64,000 nucleotides of DNA from positions 1 to 64,000 of the forward strand of contig OMYN01000007.1 in the NCBI GenBank assembly GCA_900315265.1, read 5' to 3'. Under the pieces are notes generated by a model that was not told the DNA's origin, searched no databases, and saw nothing but the letters and a program-made list of their open reading frames with translations. Position numbers and translations under genes: made by a program. The DNA comes from an uncultured Eubacteriales bacterium. Lineage in GTDB: Bacteria > Bacillota > Clostridia > Lachnospirales > Bianqueaceae. Positions 18,385 to 42,284 of the stretch are shown one piece after another (the first letter of the stretch is position 1; each line of letters opens with the position of its first letter).

Positions 18385-19764
18385 TCATTCTCCTTTGATG
18401 CGTCTTTCCATATCTTCGATCGAACGGCGCAGTTCATCTCCGTCGCGTCCCTTCAGATCATCGCTGATCTTGCTGACGGCGTAAGCTACCGTGGTGTGGT
18501 CGCGGCCGCCGAAATAGCTGCCGATACGGTCAAGGGGCTCTTCCGTAAGCTTACGGGACAGATACATGGCGATCTGGCGGGGATATGCGATCTCCTTGGG
18601 CTTTTTCTTGGACTGTAAGTCGGACACCGTCACGTTGTAGCGTTCGCAGACCACGCTGGTGATACGGGGCACGGTAATGACGGTGACCGCATCACCGGCT
18701 AAAAAGTCCTTCAAGGCTTCCTGAGCCAAGGCTATATCCAGCTTGCGGTTGGGATAGAGTTTGGCAAAAGCCTGCACGCGGGTCAGGGCTCCTTCCAGCT
18801 CTCTTATATTGGAAGAAACGACTGTCGCGATGTAGCCCAGGACGGACATGTCGATGCTGATGCCGTTGTTTTCGGCCTTCTTTTGAAGGATGGCCACCCG
18901 GGTCTCATAATCCGGCGGCTTGATGTCGGCTACCATGCCCGATTTGAAACGGGAGCGGATGCGCTCTTCCAGTGTTTTGATCTCCTCGGGACGGCGGTCG
19001 CCGGCTATGACGATCTGCTTGTTGTTTTCGTAAAGGGCGTTGAAGGTGTTGAAGAACTCCATCTGGGTGCCCTGTTTGCTTTCAAGAAACTGGATATCGT
19101 CGATGAGAAGGACGTCGATATCGCGGTACTTGCGGCGGAACTCCTCATTGGTATGATGGGAGATGGAAGTGATCAGCTCGTTGGTAAAGGTTTCACTGGT
19201 CACGTACAGGACTTTTTTGGAAGGATCCGTGTCCAGAACGTGATGGGCGATGGCCTGCATGAGATGGGTCTTGCCCAGTCCGGGGTTTCCCCAGATGTAC
19301 AGGGGGTTGTATGCCTGGCCGGGCATTTCGGCGACGGCCAGAGCGGCGGCGAAAGCCAGCTGATTGTTGGGTCCCTGAATGAAGTTGTCAAAGGTATATT
19401 TGACGTTCAGTCCGGATTTTTTTGCCAGTTCGATGTTCAGCTCTTCTTTTTCCAGTTTTTTGGCTGCCTGCTCGGTATAGGTCCCCTGATCGTAGACTTT
19501 GAAATTCAGTTCGCCGTGTCCGATCTCTTTGAGACTTTGCAGGACATTCTCACGGTAGCGGGATTCTATGATCTTGCGTCCGATGGGGGAGACGCTTTCA
19601 AGGATCAGAATATTATTGTCGATCGTGATGGGTTTAAGGGTCTTGAACCAAGTGTTATAGGTAATATCTGTCAGTTTGGTCTTGATCAGGGCGATCATCT
19701 GGTCAAAGATCTGCTGAAGATCCAGATCCGCAGCTTGCGAAGAAGCATCGGAAACGTTCTCCAT
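18385..19764 (-). CDS. dnaA: Chromosomal replication initiator protein DnaA
   Basis: The protein is 459 aa, the normal length. Domain I covers about 15-90, a variable linker follows, and the AAA+ domain starts at YTFDNFIQGPNNQLAF. Walker A GNPGLGKT is at 159-166 and Walker B LLIDDIQF near 216. The C-terminal domain IV ends with the signature GGRDHTTVAYAV that contacts the DnaA box. It is read leftwards from a good promoter (19796-19824) and followed by dnaN. DnaA-box clusters lie on both sides, which allows autoregulation as well as initiation. Confidence 0.98.
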   Translation of the reverse strand: MENVSDASSQAADLDLQQIFDQMIALIKTKLTDITYNTWFKTLKPITIDNNILILESVSPIGRKIIESRYRENVLQSLKEIGHGELNFKVYDQGTYTEQAAKKLEKEELNIELAKKSGLNVKYTFDNFIQGPNNQLAFAAALAVAEMPGQAYNPLYIWGNPGLGKTHLMQAIAHHVLDTDPSKKVLYVTSETFTNELITSISHHTNEEFRRKYRDIDVLLIDDIQFLESKQGTQMEFFNTFNALYENNKQIVIAGDRRPEEIKTLEERIRSRFKSGMVADIKPPDYETRVAILQKKAENNGISIDMSVLGYIATVVSSNIRELEGALTRVQAFAKLYPNRKLDIALAQEALKDFLAGDAVTVITVPRITSVVCERYNVTVSDLQSKKKPKEIAYPRQIAMYLSRKLTEEPLDRIGSYFGGRDHTTVAYAVSKISDDLKGRDGDELRRSIEDMERRIKGE

Positions 19765-19863: not shown

Positions 19864-20005
19864 TGTGGATAACTTTTTTCTCACTATACACGTGTAAAAA
19901 GAGGGCGATTTACCGCAGGTTGCGAGGTAGGTTTTTCATACTTTATGCACTTTTTGTGGATAACTGTCTTATAATTGTGAATAAAGAGGAGTGAAATGTG
20001 GATAA
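19864..20005. other. oriC, upstream part: DnaA-box cluster between dnaA and rpmH
   Basis: The 384-base gap between dnaA and rpmH holds no gene. It contains three perfect TGTGGATAA boxes (19864-19872, 19955-19963, 19997-20005), one TGTGAATAA (19976-19984), and a near match TTATGCACT in the other direction (19943-19951). Three of the strong boxes point the same way within 51 bases. A TTATCCCC lies at about 20014. The sequence around the last box is AT-rich. Divergent gene order (dnaA leftwards, rpmH rightwards) and the strand bias switch support the origin here. Confidence 0.85.
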
Positions 20006-29446: not shown

Positions 29447-30355
29447 GTGAGCGATATACTTCTTATTTATAATCCCAAGGCGGGAGATGCCAACTTCCGC
29501 TTTTCACTGGACCGCTTCATTGAACTTTTCTCCGATGAGAAACATCGCCAGATCTGCGTTTTCAGGAGCACCATGGCGGGAGATGCCGAGAAGTATGTAA
29601 ACGAGTGTGATCTGACCTTTGTCAGTTCGATTTTTATTGCCGGCGGCACAGGGACCGTCAATGAGGTAGTCAATGCCTTGATGAAACGGGATATCCATAT
29701 ACCGATCGGAGTGATCCCTGCCGGCACGGAGAATGAGTTTGCTCATAAACTGGGCTTTGTTTCGAAGGAACTGGAAGATAATTTTCAGGCTCTGCGCGAC
29801 ATGGACCCGATCCCGGTAGACATCGGCTGTGCCAACGGACAGTATTTCGTTGATTCTTTTACCAGCGGGACGCTGAATAGTTTGTCCAAGGTAAGTACCG
29901 ATGCCAAGAACACCTTCGGTTCGATGGCTTATTACGTAATGGGCATGACCTCGATCCGCAATGCCCGCCGTATGAAGCTCTGTATCGAAACCAGGGAGAA
30001 ACGTTATACCGGTTTCTTCTCTTACTTTGCGGTTATCAATACAAATCTGATGACCGTACCCCGTTCGTCGACCGGACAATTTACTCTGGTGGCTTCCAAG
30101 AACAACAGTTTCAACGGGGACTCTCATTACTTCAATCCTACTTACGGGCGGACCGGAGTCGTTGAAAATGGAGTCGTAAGATTGGTGAGTGATTATTTTC
30201 ATATCACTCAGCTTGATGCAGACGAAGGAAAGGCAGCAACCTGCATCGACGGGGACATGGGACCGGACCTTCCGCTGAAGATCACCGTTGAGCGGGGAGC
30301 CATGGAATTCTTCCAAAACGGCCGCGGAAGAGCGGGATATAATAATCATAAATAA
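29447..30355 (+). CDS. DagK/YegS-family lipid kinase with variant GGTGT motif
   Basis: The protein is 302 aa, the usual length for soluble diacylglycerol or sphingosine-type kinases. The N-terminal IYNPKAG and the VIPAGTENEFA segment fit the catalytic domain. The nucleotide-binding loop that is normally GGDGT reads GGTGT here (about residue 66-70), so the Asp is a Thr. The C-terminal beta domain contains the conserved DGDMGPDLPLKI stretch. DgkB recycles diacylglycerol released by envelope polymer synthesis. The Asp change could reduce activity or reflect another substrate. It is last in the mnmE-mnmG-rsmG-argS run. Confidence 0.8.
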   Translation: MSDILLIYNPKAGDANFRFSLDRFIELFSDEKHRQICVFRSTMAGDAEKYVNECDLTFVSSIFIAGGTGTVNEVVNALMKRDIHIPIGVIPAGTENEFAHKLGFVSKELEDNFQALRDMDPIPVDIGCANGQYFVDSFTSGTLNSLSKVSTDAKNTFGSMAYYVMGMTSIRNARRMKLCIETREKRYTGFFSYFAVINTNLMTVPRSSTGQFTLVASKNNSFNGDSHYFNPTYGRTGVVENGVVRLVSDYFHITQLDADEGKAATCIDGDMGPDLPLKITVERGAMEFFQNGRGRAGYNNHK

Positions 30356-30368
30356 AATAATGAAGATG

Positions 30369-30394
30369 AGTGCCGTATGACAACATACGGCACT
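30369..30394 (+). terminator. Hairpin terminator after the lipid kinase gene
   Basis: AGTGCCGTATG and CATACGGCACT form a perfect 11-bp stem with a 4-base loop. The following TATTATG is a poor U tract, so release may be incomplete. Confidence 0.6.
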
Positions 30395-30474
30395 TATTAT
30401 GTCCGGATACCCGAGAAAATACCGGGAGAGGCAATCTGGGTAGATAGTCAAAGGGAAAATCCTTTTGCGTTGAA

Positions 30475-30641
30475 TGTTCCACGTGGAACATCGAAGAAGA
30501 GTTTCAGGAAAATGTTCCACGTGGAACAATGAAGATTTAAGGTGAAATGTTTCACGTAGAACAATCGAGAAGATTTTCCTGGGAAAATGTTCCACGTGGA
30601 ACATCGGGAAAATTTTGGTGTCAAATGTTCCACGTGGAACA
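30475..30641. promoter_or_regulatory. Cluster of five parS centromere sites
   Basis: Four perfect copies of TGTTCCACGTGGAACA lie at 30475-30490, 30513-30528, 30588-30603 and 30626-30641. A fifth, TGTTTCACGTAGAACA, lies at 30548-30563 with two changes that break perfect symmetry. Centre spacing is 38, 35, 40 and 38 bases. The sequence is the ParB/Spo0J binding palindrome. The cluster fills most of the 396-base gap ahead of parA and ends 28 bases before the parA promoter, so ParB loading, spreading and parAB regulation could meet here. Confidence 0.97.
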
Positions 30642-30668
30642 TTTGAGAAAAGTTGACCCTTCGCTTCA

Positions 30669-30697
30669 TTGGAAAAGAGAAGTCCCTGTGTTATAAT
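30669..30697 (+). promoter_or_regulatory. parA-parB promoter
   Basis: TTGGAA and a perfect TATAAT are spaced 17 bases apart, 55 bases ahead of the parA ATG, which has AAGGAGG. The nearest parS is 28 bases upstream. Confidence 0.7.
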
Positions 30698-30751: not shown

Positions 30752-31549
30752 ATGGGTAAAATTATCGCGATCGCCAATCAAAAGGGCGGTGTCGGCAAGA
30801 CAACAACGACCGTCAACCTGGGCGCCTGCCTGGCTGATATGGGCTTTCGCGTTTTGATCGTAGATCTGGACCCGCAGGGGAATACGACCAGCGGCTTTGG
30901 ACTGAATAAGGATACCCTGCTGAATACCAGCTATGAAGTGCTGCTGGGCGACGTCACAGCAAAGGAAGCGATTTGCTCACTGGACAGTTATAAACTGAAA
31001 CTGCTGCCTGCCAGCCTGGATCTTTCCGGAGCTGAAGTAGAGCTGATCGGTATCGATAATAGGGAATCTCTGTTGCAAAATGCCCTGGAACCGGAACGAG
31101 GAAATTACGATTTTATCTTTATCGACTGCCCGCCCTCACTGAATATTCTGACGATCAATGCCTTTAAAGCGGCCGATTCCATTCTGGTCCCCATTCAATG
31201 TGAATTTTACGCTATGGAAGGATTGACCCAGCTGATCAATACGATCAATCTGGTCAAACAGCGTTTGAATCCCGTTATTGAAATCGAAGGGATCCTGTTT
31301 ACTATGTTTGACTCCCGTACCAATTTGTGTACAGAAGTCGTCAATGAGATCACCCGGTATCTTCCGGATAAAGTTTATCAGACTAAGATCCCCAGAAATA
31401 TCCGTCTGGCGGAAGCACCCAGCTATGGAATGCCGGTCATATATTATGATAGAACATCAAAAGGGTCCGAAAGCTACCGGCAGCTGGCTGAGGAAGTCGT
31501 TAAGCGCTGCGGTTTGAAAGCACCTGAAACATTCAAGGATCAAGATTGA
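30752..31549 (+). CDS. parA: Chromosome-partitioning ATPase ParA (Soj)
   Basis: The protein is 265 aa. The deviant Walker A KGGVGKTT at 11-18, DLDPQGNTTSGFG near 38-50 and DCPPSLNILT near 123 are typical of chromosomal ParA/Soj. It binds DNA as an ATP dimer and works with ParB at parS; in Bacillus it also controls DnaA. The gene is about 11 kb from the origin. It is followed by parB and a HAD phosphatase in the same transcript. Confidence 0.96.
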   Translation: MGKIIAIANQKGGVGKTTTTVNLGACLADMGFRVLIVDLDPQGNTTSGFGLNKDTLLNTSYEVLLGDVTAKEAICSLDSYKLKLLPASLDLSGAEVELIGIDNRESLLQNALEPERGNYDFIFIDCPPSLNILTINAFKAADSILVPIQCEFYAMEGLTQLINTINLVKQRLNPVIEIEGILFTMFDSRTNLCTEVVNEITRYLPDKVYQTKIPRNIRLAEAPSYGMPVIYYDRTSKGSESYRQLAEEVVKRCGLKAPETFKDQD

Positions 31550-31566: not shown

Positions 31567-32574
31567 ATGAGTGTTAGAAAAAGAGGATTAGGACGTGGAC
31601 TGGATGCCTTGATCGGCGGATCGGCGGCCGTAACGGAAGAAGCATCTGCTGCCAAAAAAGAGGCTGAGGAAGAAAGGACAAAGGCTGAAGCCGGAACGGC
31701 CAGTGAAGATACGGGTAAGGCGGAAGCCGCTCAGACAAAAGCAGGGGCAGCTGAACAAACAGAAGCTTCTGCCGACGGCAGGGATCAGGTCGTGACCCTT
31801 GATATCGACAAGATCAAACCGGATACCAAACAGCCGCGGCAGGTTTTTGACCAGGACCGTTTGGAAGAACTGACGGCATCGATCAAGGAGCATGGCGTGC
31901 TGCAGCCGCTGATCGTAAAGAAGGTCGATGACGGATATCAGATCATTGCCGGCGAGCGTCGCTATCGGGCGGCAAAGGCAGCCGGCATCGATAAACTGCC
32001 GGTATTGGTCCGGGAGTATACGCAGCAGGAAACGCTGGAAGTTTCGCTGATCGAGAACATCCAGCGCCAGGATCTGAACCCGATCGAAGAAGCCAAGGCT
32101 TTTCAAAGGCTGATGGACGAGTACGGGCTGAAACAGGAAGAGGTAGCGCAGAAGGTAGGCCGCAGCCGTTCTTCGGTTGCCAATTCGCTCCGGCTGCTGA
32201 ACTTAAGTGACGACGTGCAATGGATGATCGCAGACGGCTCACTGTCTACAGGACATGCCAAGGTCCTTTTGGGAATCCGTTCGAAAGAACTGCAGGAGAA
32301 ATTAGCGAAAAAGGCAGCGGCCGGTCAGTGGAGTGTCCGTCAGCTGGAAAAGGAAGCTAAAAAAGCTCTGCTGGGCAAGCCGGCGCCGGTGGAACCGACG
32401 GCAGTAGACAAGGCTTATCAGCAAGCCGGTGAACAGCTGCAGGAGATCCTGGGAACGAAAGTCCGTATTTCTTATAAAGAGGATAAGGGCGTTCAAAAAG
32501 GCAAGATCGAGATCGATTACTATTCAGAAGAAGAACTGGAAAGACTGATCGGTTTGATCCAGAGCCTGAGGTGA
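31567..32574 (+). CDS. parB: Chromosome-partitioning protein ParB (Spo0J)
   Basis: The protein is 335 aa. It starts MSVRKRGLGRGLDALIGG, the conserved ParA-interacting N-terminus; ATG 31567 lies behind AAAGGAGA, and a TTG 21 bases earlier is rejected. A low-complexity Ala/Glu/Lys linker covers about 20-75, longer than usual. The CTP-binding domain has GERRYRAAK and ENIQRQDLNPIEEA, followed by the helix-turn-helix (QEEVAQKVGRSRSSVANSLR in pieces) and a C-terminal dimerisation domain. It binds the parS cluster upstream. Confidence 0.96.
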   Translation: MSVRKRGLGRGLDALIGGSAAVTEEASAAKKEAEEERTKAEAGTASEDTGKAEAAQTKAGAAEQTEASADGRDQVVTLDIDKIKPDTKQPRQVFDQDRLEELTASIKEHGVLQPLIVKKVDDGYQIIAGERRYRAAKAAGIDKLPVLVREYTQQETLEVSLIENIQRQDLNPIEEAKAFQRLMDEYGLKQEEVAQKVGRSRSSVANSLRLLNLSDDVQWMIADGSLSTGHAKVLLGIRSKELQEKLAKKAAAGQWSVRQLEKEAKKALLGKPAPVEPTAVDKAYQQAGEQLQEILGTKVRISYKEDKGVQKGKIEIDYYSEEELERLIGLIQSLR

Positions 32575-40319: not shown

Positions 40320-42284
40320 ATGAAAAAGAGAATTTTTGCTCTGCTCCTTGCAGTTGCTATGATTGTAACCACTCTTGCTGGTTGCAGCAGCAGCAAAGGC
40401 AGCAGCAACAGCACTGCCGGCAGTGAGACTTCCGGCAGCACGACGAGTTCGAGCTCCGACGGCGGCGAGATGACCGAAGTCGGTACTCCTCGTAAAGACA
40501 CTCTGATCGTTGAGTGCCAGAGCCCCACTGATGTTCCCGGTCAGTTCAATACCTACATGTCCGGTACTTCCGCTGGTTTCGGTATCCATCAGCTGATGTC
40601 CGCTATGATGTGGGAAATGGACACCGTAAACGGTGAGCAGTACGGCGAAGTTGCCGATGGTATGCCTACCGCTAACGATGACTTCACTGAGTGGACCGTT
40701 CCGATCCGTAAAGGAATCAAATGGTCTGACGGCGAAGACCTGACTGCAAAAGACGTTGCCTTCACCTTCAACATGATCATGGGCAACAAGAACATTTCTC
40801 AGTGCGATTACTACAACAGCGTATTTGAGTCTGTTGAAGCTACCGACGATTACACCGTTACCATCAAAACCAAATATTCCTTCCCTCGTCTGGTTCAGAA
40901 ATTTGGTGTTACCATTTGGGGTAACGATCTTCGAATCGTTCCTGAGCACATCTATTCTCAGTACGATGATGTAACCACCTTCAAAGATGAGAAGCCTGTC
41001 GTTGCAGGTCCTTACACTGTTAAAGCTTATGATGAGCTTGGTCAGTGGATCCTGTACGAGCGTCGTGAAGACTGGCAGAACAGTACTTCCGGTGTTGTTT
41101 CCGGCAAAGAGCCCGCAGCACAGTATGTATGGTTCCGCTTCCTTGGCGATGACAGTGCCCGTCAGATGGCCATGGTCAACAACCAGGTCGATGTACTTTG
41201 CGAGGTTACCCCTGAAATGCTGACCTCTATGATGGATCAGAATGACAAGATCTCCGCTTGGTACAAAGACTTCCCGTATGCTACTTCCGATGATCCCTGC
41301 TCCAAAGGTCTGAGCTTCTCTATCGGCCAGGGCGCTCCTTACGACAACAAGTACTTCCGTTGGGGTATTGCAGCTGCCATGAACTACGATGAGATCATGA
41401 TGAACATCTTTGGCGGTATCGGACGTACTTCTCCGTTCCCGATCATTACCGAGACTTCCGCATTCCTGAAACTGTACGGAGACGAGATCCAGAATTGGCT
41501 GAAAGATTTCGAGATTCCGCTGGATGACGGCACGACTTACAAACCTTGGGATCCTGACTATGCTACTCGTATGGCCGAGACCCTTCGCGGACAGGGCTAT
41601 GACATTCCGGATGACGAAGCTACCCTTACCGATATGTTTGGTATCGGTGTTTGGAAGTATGATCCGGATGCAGCTACCGAACTGCTTAAGATGGCAGGTC
41701 TTGAACTGAAAGATGGTAAGTGGTATTTCGACGGCAAAGAGTTCACGATCGCTCTGTCCTACCTTGCTGATACCGAGGCTCAGGCAGGACGTGGTGTTCA
41801 GGCTGCCTATGACCAGCTGACCAAATTCGGTCTGAACTGCACCATCGAATCTCAGTCTTCTTCTACCTGGAACACCAACGGCTCCACTGGTAACTACCAG
41901 ATCGCCGGATATTGGCCGACCGGATTCATTACTGAGGATGTTTACTCTCAGATCAATGGTTGGGATGGAGACCTGATCGTTCCGCTGGGACAGAATGGTT
42001 CCGGCCAGGGTACTCGTTGGAATAACCAGGAAGCTACGGATATTATCCATAAGCTTGCTGAGACTGACCCGTCCAGCCCGGATGCTCATAAACTGGCTCT
42101 TCAGTTCCTTGAGGTCGCTATTGAGGATCTGCCTTTCATCGGCTTCCAGTCCGGTGTTAAGTGCGTTCCTACCAACAGCACTTATTGGACCAACTATCCT
42201 ACCGCAGACAACGCTTACAACGGACCGTGGTGGTGGTGGAGCTGCTTCAAGTATATCGTTAACGAGCTGAAACCCGTAGAGTAA
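40320..42284 (+). CDS. Family-5 extracellular solute-binding lipoprotein (Dpp/Opp type)
   Basis: The protein is 654 aa. A lipoprotein signal peptide ends in TTLAGC with the lipidated Cys22, followed by a Ser/Gly/Thr-rich linker to about residue 48. The mature part has the family-5 pattern: KDVAFTFNMIM and VAGPYTVKAYDE in lobe I, with WGIAAAMNYDEIM further on. The C-terminus contains four Trp in a row in a GPWWWWS stretch. Family-5 proteins bind peptides, but also oligosaccharides; the oxidoreductase next door favours the latter. Codons look highly biased, suggesting strong expression. A terminator follows before the permease genes. Confidence 0.92.
   Translation: MKKRIFALLLAVAMIVTTLAGCSSSKGSSNSTAGSETSGSTTSSSSDGGEMTEVGTPRKDTLIVECQSPTDVPGQFNTYMSGTSAGFGIHQLMSAMMWEMDTVNGEQYGEVADGMPTANDDFTEWTVPIRKGIKWSDGEDLTAKDVAFTFNMIMGNKNISQCDYYNSVFESVEATDDYTVTIKTKYSFPRLVQKFGVTIWGNDLRIVPEHIYSQYDDVTTFKDEKPVVAGPYTVKAYDELGQWILYERREDWQNSTSGVVSGKEPAAQYVWFRFLGDDSARQMAMVNNQVDVLCEVTPEMLTSMMDQNDKISAWYKDFPYATSDDPCSKGLSFSIGQGAPYDNKYFRWGIAAAMNYDEIMMNIFGGIGRTSPFPIITETSAFLKLYGDEIQNWLKDFEIPLDDGTTYKPWDPDYATRMAETLRGQGYDIPDDEATLTDMFGIGVWKYDPDAATELLKMAGLELKDGKWYFDGKEFTIALSYLADTEAQAGRGVQAAYDQLTKFGLNCTIESQSSSTWNTNGSTGNYQIAGYWPTGFITEDVYSQINGWDGDLIVPLGQNGSGQGTRWNNQEATDIIHKLAETDPSSPDAHKLALQFLEVAIEDLPFIGFQSGVKCVPTNSTYWTNYPTADNAYNGPWWWWSCFKYIVNELKPVE

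Follow-up and report, generated by a model that had tools for sequence, protein, structure and literature searches.

A compact five-site parS array ahead of a chromosomal parAB, and a Lys/Arg residue of ParB that covaries with parS spelling

Why should a chromosome carry five parS sites side by side directly ahead of parA, and why are most of them not written with the textbook half-site TGTTTCAC? Both questions are raised by positions 30475-30641 of the window, the term used here for the whole stretch of 64,000 nucleotides that was analysed. A sequence-only reading of this DNA had described four perfect and one altered parS at these positions, 35-40 bases apart, and a motif scan confirmed it: there are four perfect TGTTCCACGTGGAACA palindromes and one altered copy, TGTTTCACGTAGAACA, with start-to-start spacings of 38, 35, 40 and 38 bp. 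All belong to the 16-bp palindromic TGTTNCACGTGNAACA type, four perfectly and one with a single mismatch; measured against the palindrome, this third site has two mismatches.

30475..30490, plus strand: parS site 1, perfect TGTTCCACGTGGAACA
30513..30528, plus strand: parS site 2, perfect TGTTCCACGTGGAACA
30548..30563, plus strand: parS site 3, altered TGTTTCACGTAGAACA, with left half TGTTTCAC and right half GTAGAACA (that is, TGTTCTAC)
30588..30603, plus strand: parS site 4, perfect TGTTCCACGTGGAACA
30626..30641, plus strand: parS site 5, perfect TGTTCCACGTGGAACA

The array and its locus

When up to three mismatches were allowed, the window contained six parS matches, the sixth (three mismatches) lying at 41859, and none of 100 shuffles of the window reached six (mean 0.17, maximum 2). 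The search was extended at up to two mismatches to the window's own genome (2,164,665 bases in 43 contigs, 96.97% complete, so that about 3% is missing from the scan), where the five array sites were joined by one two-mismatch word on contig C3. By our own arithmetic, chance alone would give about 0.35 words one mismatch away from the N-form at this genome size. The sequence-only reading had proposed looking for equal clusters in the rest of the genome, and none came to light, since no second parS cluster was found across the 97%-complete assembly at this threshold.

The array is flanked by a diacylglycerol-kinase-like gene, which ends at 30355, and by parA, which starts at 30752. Upstream neighbours are yidC, jag, mnmE, mnmG, rsmG, argS and the kinase-like gene, and parA is followed by parB and a HAD hydrolase gene. 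The minus strand before 19764 carries dnaA, dnaN and a RecF-like gene, and about 10.5 kb separate the par locus from the DnaA boxes adjoining dnaA: this is a standard oriC-side chromosomal parAB.

18385..19764, minus strand: dnaA (Pfam Bac_DnaA, 8.2e-69)
19864..20005, minus strand: putative origin region between dnaA and yidC, with three TTATCCACA DnaA boxes at 19864, 19955 and 19997 (pattern scan)
30369..30394, no strand assigned: 11-bp perfect hairpin, a possible terminator, 3' of the kinase-like gene (terminator-like call on the minus strand only)
30669..30697, plus strand: predicted parA promoter, TTGGAA at 30669, 17-base spacer and TATAAT at 30692-30697 with a TG extension (10 of 12 in a consensus scan)
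30752..31549, plus strand: parA, 265 aa (Pfam AAA_31, 1.6e-67), with the ATPase motif from about residue 11 and no N-terminal DNA-binding domain
31567..32574, plus strand: parB, 335 aa (Pfam ParB_N, 1.1e-33; HTH_ParB, 1.5e-38; ParB_C, 1.1e-6)

The hairpin precedes the array, and the plus strand gave no terminator-like call there. On the other side, parS site 5 is separated from the predicted -35 by 27 bases, which agrees to within a base with the 28 bases to the promoter given by the sequence-only reading.

The window ParB combines a CTP-binding N domain, an HTH_ParB domain and a C-terminal dimer domain, and possesses the GERRYRA and ENIQR motifs. Its relatives in the PDB include 7bnk, 7bnr and 6sdk, and the Caulobacter chain 6t1f was likewise hit by sequence; ParB and Spo0J chains were matched, and Noc chains more weakly. 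Apart from these, the one named match to the window ParB, with 44% identity, came from an uncultured Clostridia MAG, which makes the class a lead at most. The DNA-binding domain of Noc is characterized by Gln at 173 and Arg at 201 (PMC7383237). The window ParB has Arg and Gly at these positions instead, and a Noc/NBS identity was rejected.

Judged from sequence and comparison, the array is very probably the chromosomal centromere of an ordinary ParABS system of the Soj/Spo0J type, a compact five-site loading station that grew partly by duplication of about 38 bp and is written in the spelling that accompanies Lys at ParB residue 204. In ParABS systems, ParB with CTP becomes a sliding clamp once loaded at parS; the complex is moved by ParA, and SMC is recruited (PMC7022226). 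If the window follows what is established for the family, the five parS would load ParB-CTP dimers, which would then close as clamps and slide both ways, the adjacent sites serving as one compact station. ParA would shift the resulting ParB cluster and SMC would be recruited, by which the newly copied origin, 10.5 kb off, would be separated. An SMC-hinge protein is encoded on contig C28 of the same genome.

parS spelling and ParB residue 204

The residue that follows GHA in ParB, and that aligns with Caulobacter R204, is Lys in the window's family and Arg in most of the order.

32260..32262, plus strand: Lys codon of GHAK in parB (from the alignment column; aligned with Caulobacter R204)

In Caulobacter, R204 contacts parS and is conserved between ParB and Noc, and the experiments on ParB/Noc specificity used the TGTTTCAC-GTGAAACA consensus (both PMC7383237). 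In a first table, the pairing of Arg with T at parS base 5 held for 44 of 46 genomes, that of Lys with C for 20 of 21. Holders of TGTTCCACGTGGAACA numbered 42 among 295 genomes, and stretches were fetched for 19 new ones and for one T-type genome; these newly fetched stretches were therefore selected by parS spelling. A readable ParB was obtained from 11 of the 19, with Lys in 10 of the 11, though these ten fall in three clades (genus g73 of family f11, genus g59 of f17, and f2) and the 11 genomes should not be counted as independent. In G019, the exception, a single TGTTCCACGTGGAACA is accompanied by one mixed site, and the T-type genome (G149) has Arg.

Taken over 85 genomes, the spelling TGTTCCAC or TGTTTCAC pairs with Lys or Arg, respectively, at residue 204 in 82 (residue/base 5: Arg/T 53, Lys/C 29, Arg/C 2, Lys/T 1). 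This count leaves out ties (G105, G065 and G206), genomes without a perfect site, Noc-like proteins and proteins without Gly at 201. The ParB motif found no ParB in 13 stretches, and G036 gave a Noc-like protein only. Exceptions to the pairing are G159, G019 and G480, with ties in G206 and G065. Among the DNA-binding-domain columns scanned, residue 204 had the highest association with spelling (phi 0.924), the next column reaching 0.743.

Sites with one mismatch bear on the same question. Within the family, all six such sites up to 1.4 kb upstream of parA have C to T at half-site position 6, giving TGTTCTAC; elsewhere in the order, 16 of 22 have C to T at position 8. One further site, in G006, has a change at position 1 and lies 2.9 kb upstream, and it was counted only when the sites were tallied by residue. 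In that tally, the position-6 change accounts for 9 of 14 one-mismatch sites in Lys-204 genomes and 0 of 23 in Arg-204 genomes, and the position-8 change for none and 16 of 23, respectively (Fisher 1.6e-5 and 2.1e-5, not corrected for relatedness). Altered site 3 of the window does not look like random decay, carrying as it does the family-recurrent TGTTCTAC half (on the right, GTAGAACA).

One should keep in mind that residue and spelling might agree through shared ancestry and not through a change of specificity, an explanation that we hold to be a serious contender, if somewhat short of even. Fifteen of the 29 Lys/C genomes come from one family and six from one genus (g73), the later stretches were chosen by spelling, and there are the three exceptions in the sample. 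Structure 7bnk, which we take to be the ParB of Myxococcus xanthus, has GHAR, unlike the window's ParB. The M. xanthus consensus is TGTTCCACGTGGAACG (PMC3899335), so that this species, by the 7bnk alignment, breaks the pairing, which is local to the phylum at best. Against shared ancestry stands the phylogenetic result: on a ParB tree built without column 204, Fitch parsimony gave 6 changes of residue and 7 of base, and a Pagel test on the same tree gave a likelihood ratio of 29.7 (p 5.6e-6). That 204 is the best column, that the new Lys genomes with C spelling are spread over three clades, and that the one-mismatch sites also differ by residue argue in the same direction.

That residue 204 acts as a spelling switch we put at about an even chance. 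Lys-204 ParBs would have moved to TGTTCCAC several times, and independently, within the phylum, with the variant TGTTCTAC tolerated, and Arg-204 ParBs would have kept TGTTTCAC, with TGTTTCAT as their variant. The window would then hold a five-copy centromere in the Lys dialect, in which site 3 joins an Arg-type half to a Lys-variant half and would be expected to load ParB unlike the sites around it. On the basis of the covariation, Lys-204 together with TGTTCCAC in the window's family would also explain the array's departure from the textbook TGTTTCAC.

We regard the Lys/Arg-204 covariation, in which several switches are apparently independent, as the most interesting result of this analysis, and such a dialect would matter more than the array itself. 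Within the open-access text available to us, no description of a rule linking residue 204 to parS spelling was found. If the rule is true, residue 204 switches together with a base that is often written as N, which would supply a rule for the specificity of the ParB clamp loader that can be tested directly.

Site number, placement and origin of the array

Is such an array out of the ordinary? Placement and number were compared over 81 loci of the order, made up of the window, 12 further loci from its family and 68 of 72 other loci fetched; four were left out for want of a parA-parB pair in the stretch (G284, G271, G136 and a control from contig C32 of the window's own genome). The sample is non-random, with about one genome per genus drawn from among the ParB matches listed, and sites with up to one mismatch were accepted within 450 bp upstream of parA. 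At least one parS was present there in 72 of the 81 genomes, at least two in 41 and at least three in 8. By number of sites, nine genomes had none, 31 one, 33 two, six three, one four (G247, spaced at 100, 99 and 102 bp) and one, the window, five, which is the maximum. The nine without sites include G018, with only 86 bp readable upstream, and G147, G245 and G068, in which sites lie further up.

The sequence-only reading had taken a position before parA to be unusual, which the 72 genomes contradict. Its emphasis on density fares better as regards number, the highest of the 81, than as regards location, which is ordinary. Tight triplets (three sites with gaps of 15-45 and a degenerate middle site) are also rare, being found in 6 of 392 genomes at the level of the order and in 5 of 398 at that of the phylum, with the window's genome counted in both. 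In the five other genomes of the order, the triplet is just upstream of parA, at about 50 to 105 bp; of the four others in the phylum, two (G441 and G480) carry it upstream of parA and two (G407 and G735) downstream of parB. Thus, the place of the array is normal for its relatives, and its number of sites is unusual, not unique.

Among the other members of the genus, parS was seen in four of six, with one or three sites within 450 bp of parA. As the count among relatives runs from one to five, five sites are not required for function in general. The nearest parS is about 15 to 138 bp from the parA start across the family, and several relatives carry further parS 0.5-3 kb off. No significant helical phasing was found in 52 upstream spacings.

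Some genomes of the order depart from the canonical motif. In families f5 and f16, nearly all sampled genomes are without it, and most have a ParB at E 1e-40; G208 is the one f5 genome with canonical matches. Perfect 16-base palindromes were also sought in a segment reaching from 1.5 kb ahead of the parA ATPase motif to 2.6 kb beyond it; none turned up in two f5 loci, and the motif-less relatives G252, G216, G026, G059 and G071 gave one word in one genome. The centromere of f5 and f16 may be spelled differently.

Clustered parS are also known from other systems. In G441, of the same phylum (family f83), five perfect TGTTCCACGTGGAACA stand about 340 bp before parA with a period of exactly 39 bp; unlike in the window, the spacers are near-identical, indicating recent duplication, and three more sites lie 2.2 kb away. 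The ParB motif found no ParB in the G441 stretch read. G093, of the same order (family f2), likewise has evenly spaced TGTTCCACGTGGAACA and the altered copy TGTTCTACGTGGAACA, but its period is 66 bp, and no fewer than 11 sites, nine perfect and two altered, lie 2.2 kb upstream of parA; this array (L198:5958-6636) runs into the contig end, and the genome has 13 perfect sites in total. M. xanthus shares clustered parS of TGTTCCACGTGGAAC-type consensus upstream of a chromosomal parA, but has 22 of them in 3 kb, about 4 kb upstream (PMC3899335). Bdellovibrio bacteriovorus has parS upstream of its chromosomal parAB as in the window, but two sites (PMC10547168), and Thermus thermophilus has one, inside gidB immediately upstream of parA, against five here (PMC4409726).

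The window array looks like a diverged tandem repeat of 38 bp.

30473..30642, plus strand: diverged tandem repeat, period 38, 4.5 copies, enclosing all five parS (TRF: 75% matches, 10% indels, score 164)

Once the parS letters are removed, none of 1000 dinucleotide shuffles matches the likeness among its four spacers, and G441 and G480 also exceed 1000 of 1000. For G318, G324, G349, G377 and G206, spacer likeness does not rise above that of shuffles (p 0.53 to 0.87), and a single duplication origin for all arrays was rejected on these grounds; G247 gave p 0.12 and G407 p 0.05. Some arrays therefore grew via duplication, and others bear no sign of it. For the window, the spacers support growth of the probable station, in part or in whole, through copying of a unit of about 38 bp. 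The array is one more indication that tight parS arrays have come about more than once ahead of parA, some of them via duplication.

It might be argued that the extra sites are neutral products of such tandem duplication and that one or two copies would do, which we consider possible, if rather unlikely. The window spacers are indeed duplicates, the genus members with parS manage with one or three sites near parA, and a single parS suffices in Pseudomonas aeruginosa (PMC4368675). Yet four of the five copies are letter-perfect within a repeat of 75% matches, which suggests selection on the sites.

Expression control, plasmid likeness and related loci

The array, as a probable chromosomal centromere, may also affect the genes next to it. 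Since the nearest site is 27 bases from the -35, repression of parAB by ParB is plausible on sequence grounds, and clamps sliding over the predicted promoter could damp parAB expression. The distance from parS to parA varies within the family, so one fixed regulatory geometry is not favoured.

An array that is primarily an operator, where bound ParB represses parAB and partition is secondary, goes a good deal further, and we think it improbable. It would fit the placement between hairpin and promoter, the parS upstream of parA in most of the 81 genomes, and the report that P. aeruginosa ParB lowers expression from a promoter next to an inserted parS (PMC7022226). Weighing against an operator are the varying distances to the parA start and the further parS 0.5-3 kb away in several relatives. 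Moreover, these are the sole parS found in the 97%-complete genome and must serve partition if the system works.

Plasmid type Ib centromeres are likewise clustered repeats ahead of parA, in the form of short iterons bound by ribbon-helix-helix centromere proteins. The window resembles them in its clustered repeats and differs in its 16-bp parS and HTH-type ParB: no small ribbon-helix-helix protein is encoded, the downstream gene being that for the 335-aa ParB_N/HTH_ParB protein, and the type Ib assignment was rejected. Capture of a plasmid-type cassette by the chromosome is hardly conceivable given the canonical chromosomal parS, the protein type, the synteny with oriC neighbours (dnaA, dnaN, yidC, jag, mnmE, mnmG and rsmG) and the same arrangement across the order, which also leave the plasmid-like character proposed in the sequence-only reading unsupported; a plasmid-type locus was rejected on synteny and protein type.

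Other partition genes were seen apart from this locus. In the window's own genome, a second, distant ParB-like gene (35% identity) lies at C32:14420-14788, where the stretch read contains no parS, and C39:39854-40318 gives a partial ParA-like match; these perhaps belong to a plasmid or an integrated element. In G007-G011 (L061-L065; genera g2 and g3), a second ParB-like protein is encoded near the par locus and bears the Gln173/Arg201 signature of Noc. No such second protein was found in the window's genus at E 1e-40 among the matches listed.

Two genomes of the family, both of genus g4, lack parA in the interval from the kinase-like gene to parB (G012, L066:4333-6351; G014, L068:4233-6223) and lie outside the 81 loci. 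Both keep two parS, one in the end of the kinase-like gene and one by the parB start, the latter directly before parB in G014 and overlapping its first codons (MFHVEQ) in G012. At E 1e-30, ParA relatives elsewhere in the genome are only distant in G012 (46 and 43% identity), and there are none in G014, whose assembly is 86% complete. The gene is present in G013, which belongs to this genus as well. The sites are thus kept independently of parA.

Tight parS arrays, mostly with a 34-38-bp period and up to eight copies, are also borne by nine IMG/VR viral contigs (L166-L174; for example, L174:6137-6460 and L170:7102-7224). A motif scan of these stretches found a ParB-like protein in L166 only and ParA in none, and it is possible that the viral arrays hitchhike on host ParB. 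L170 and L174 encode a terminase large subunit.
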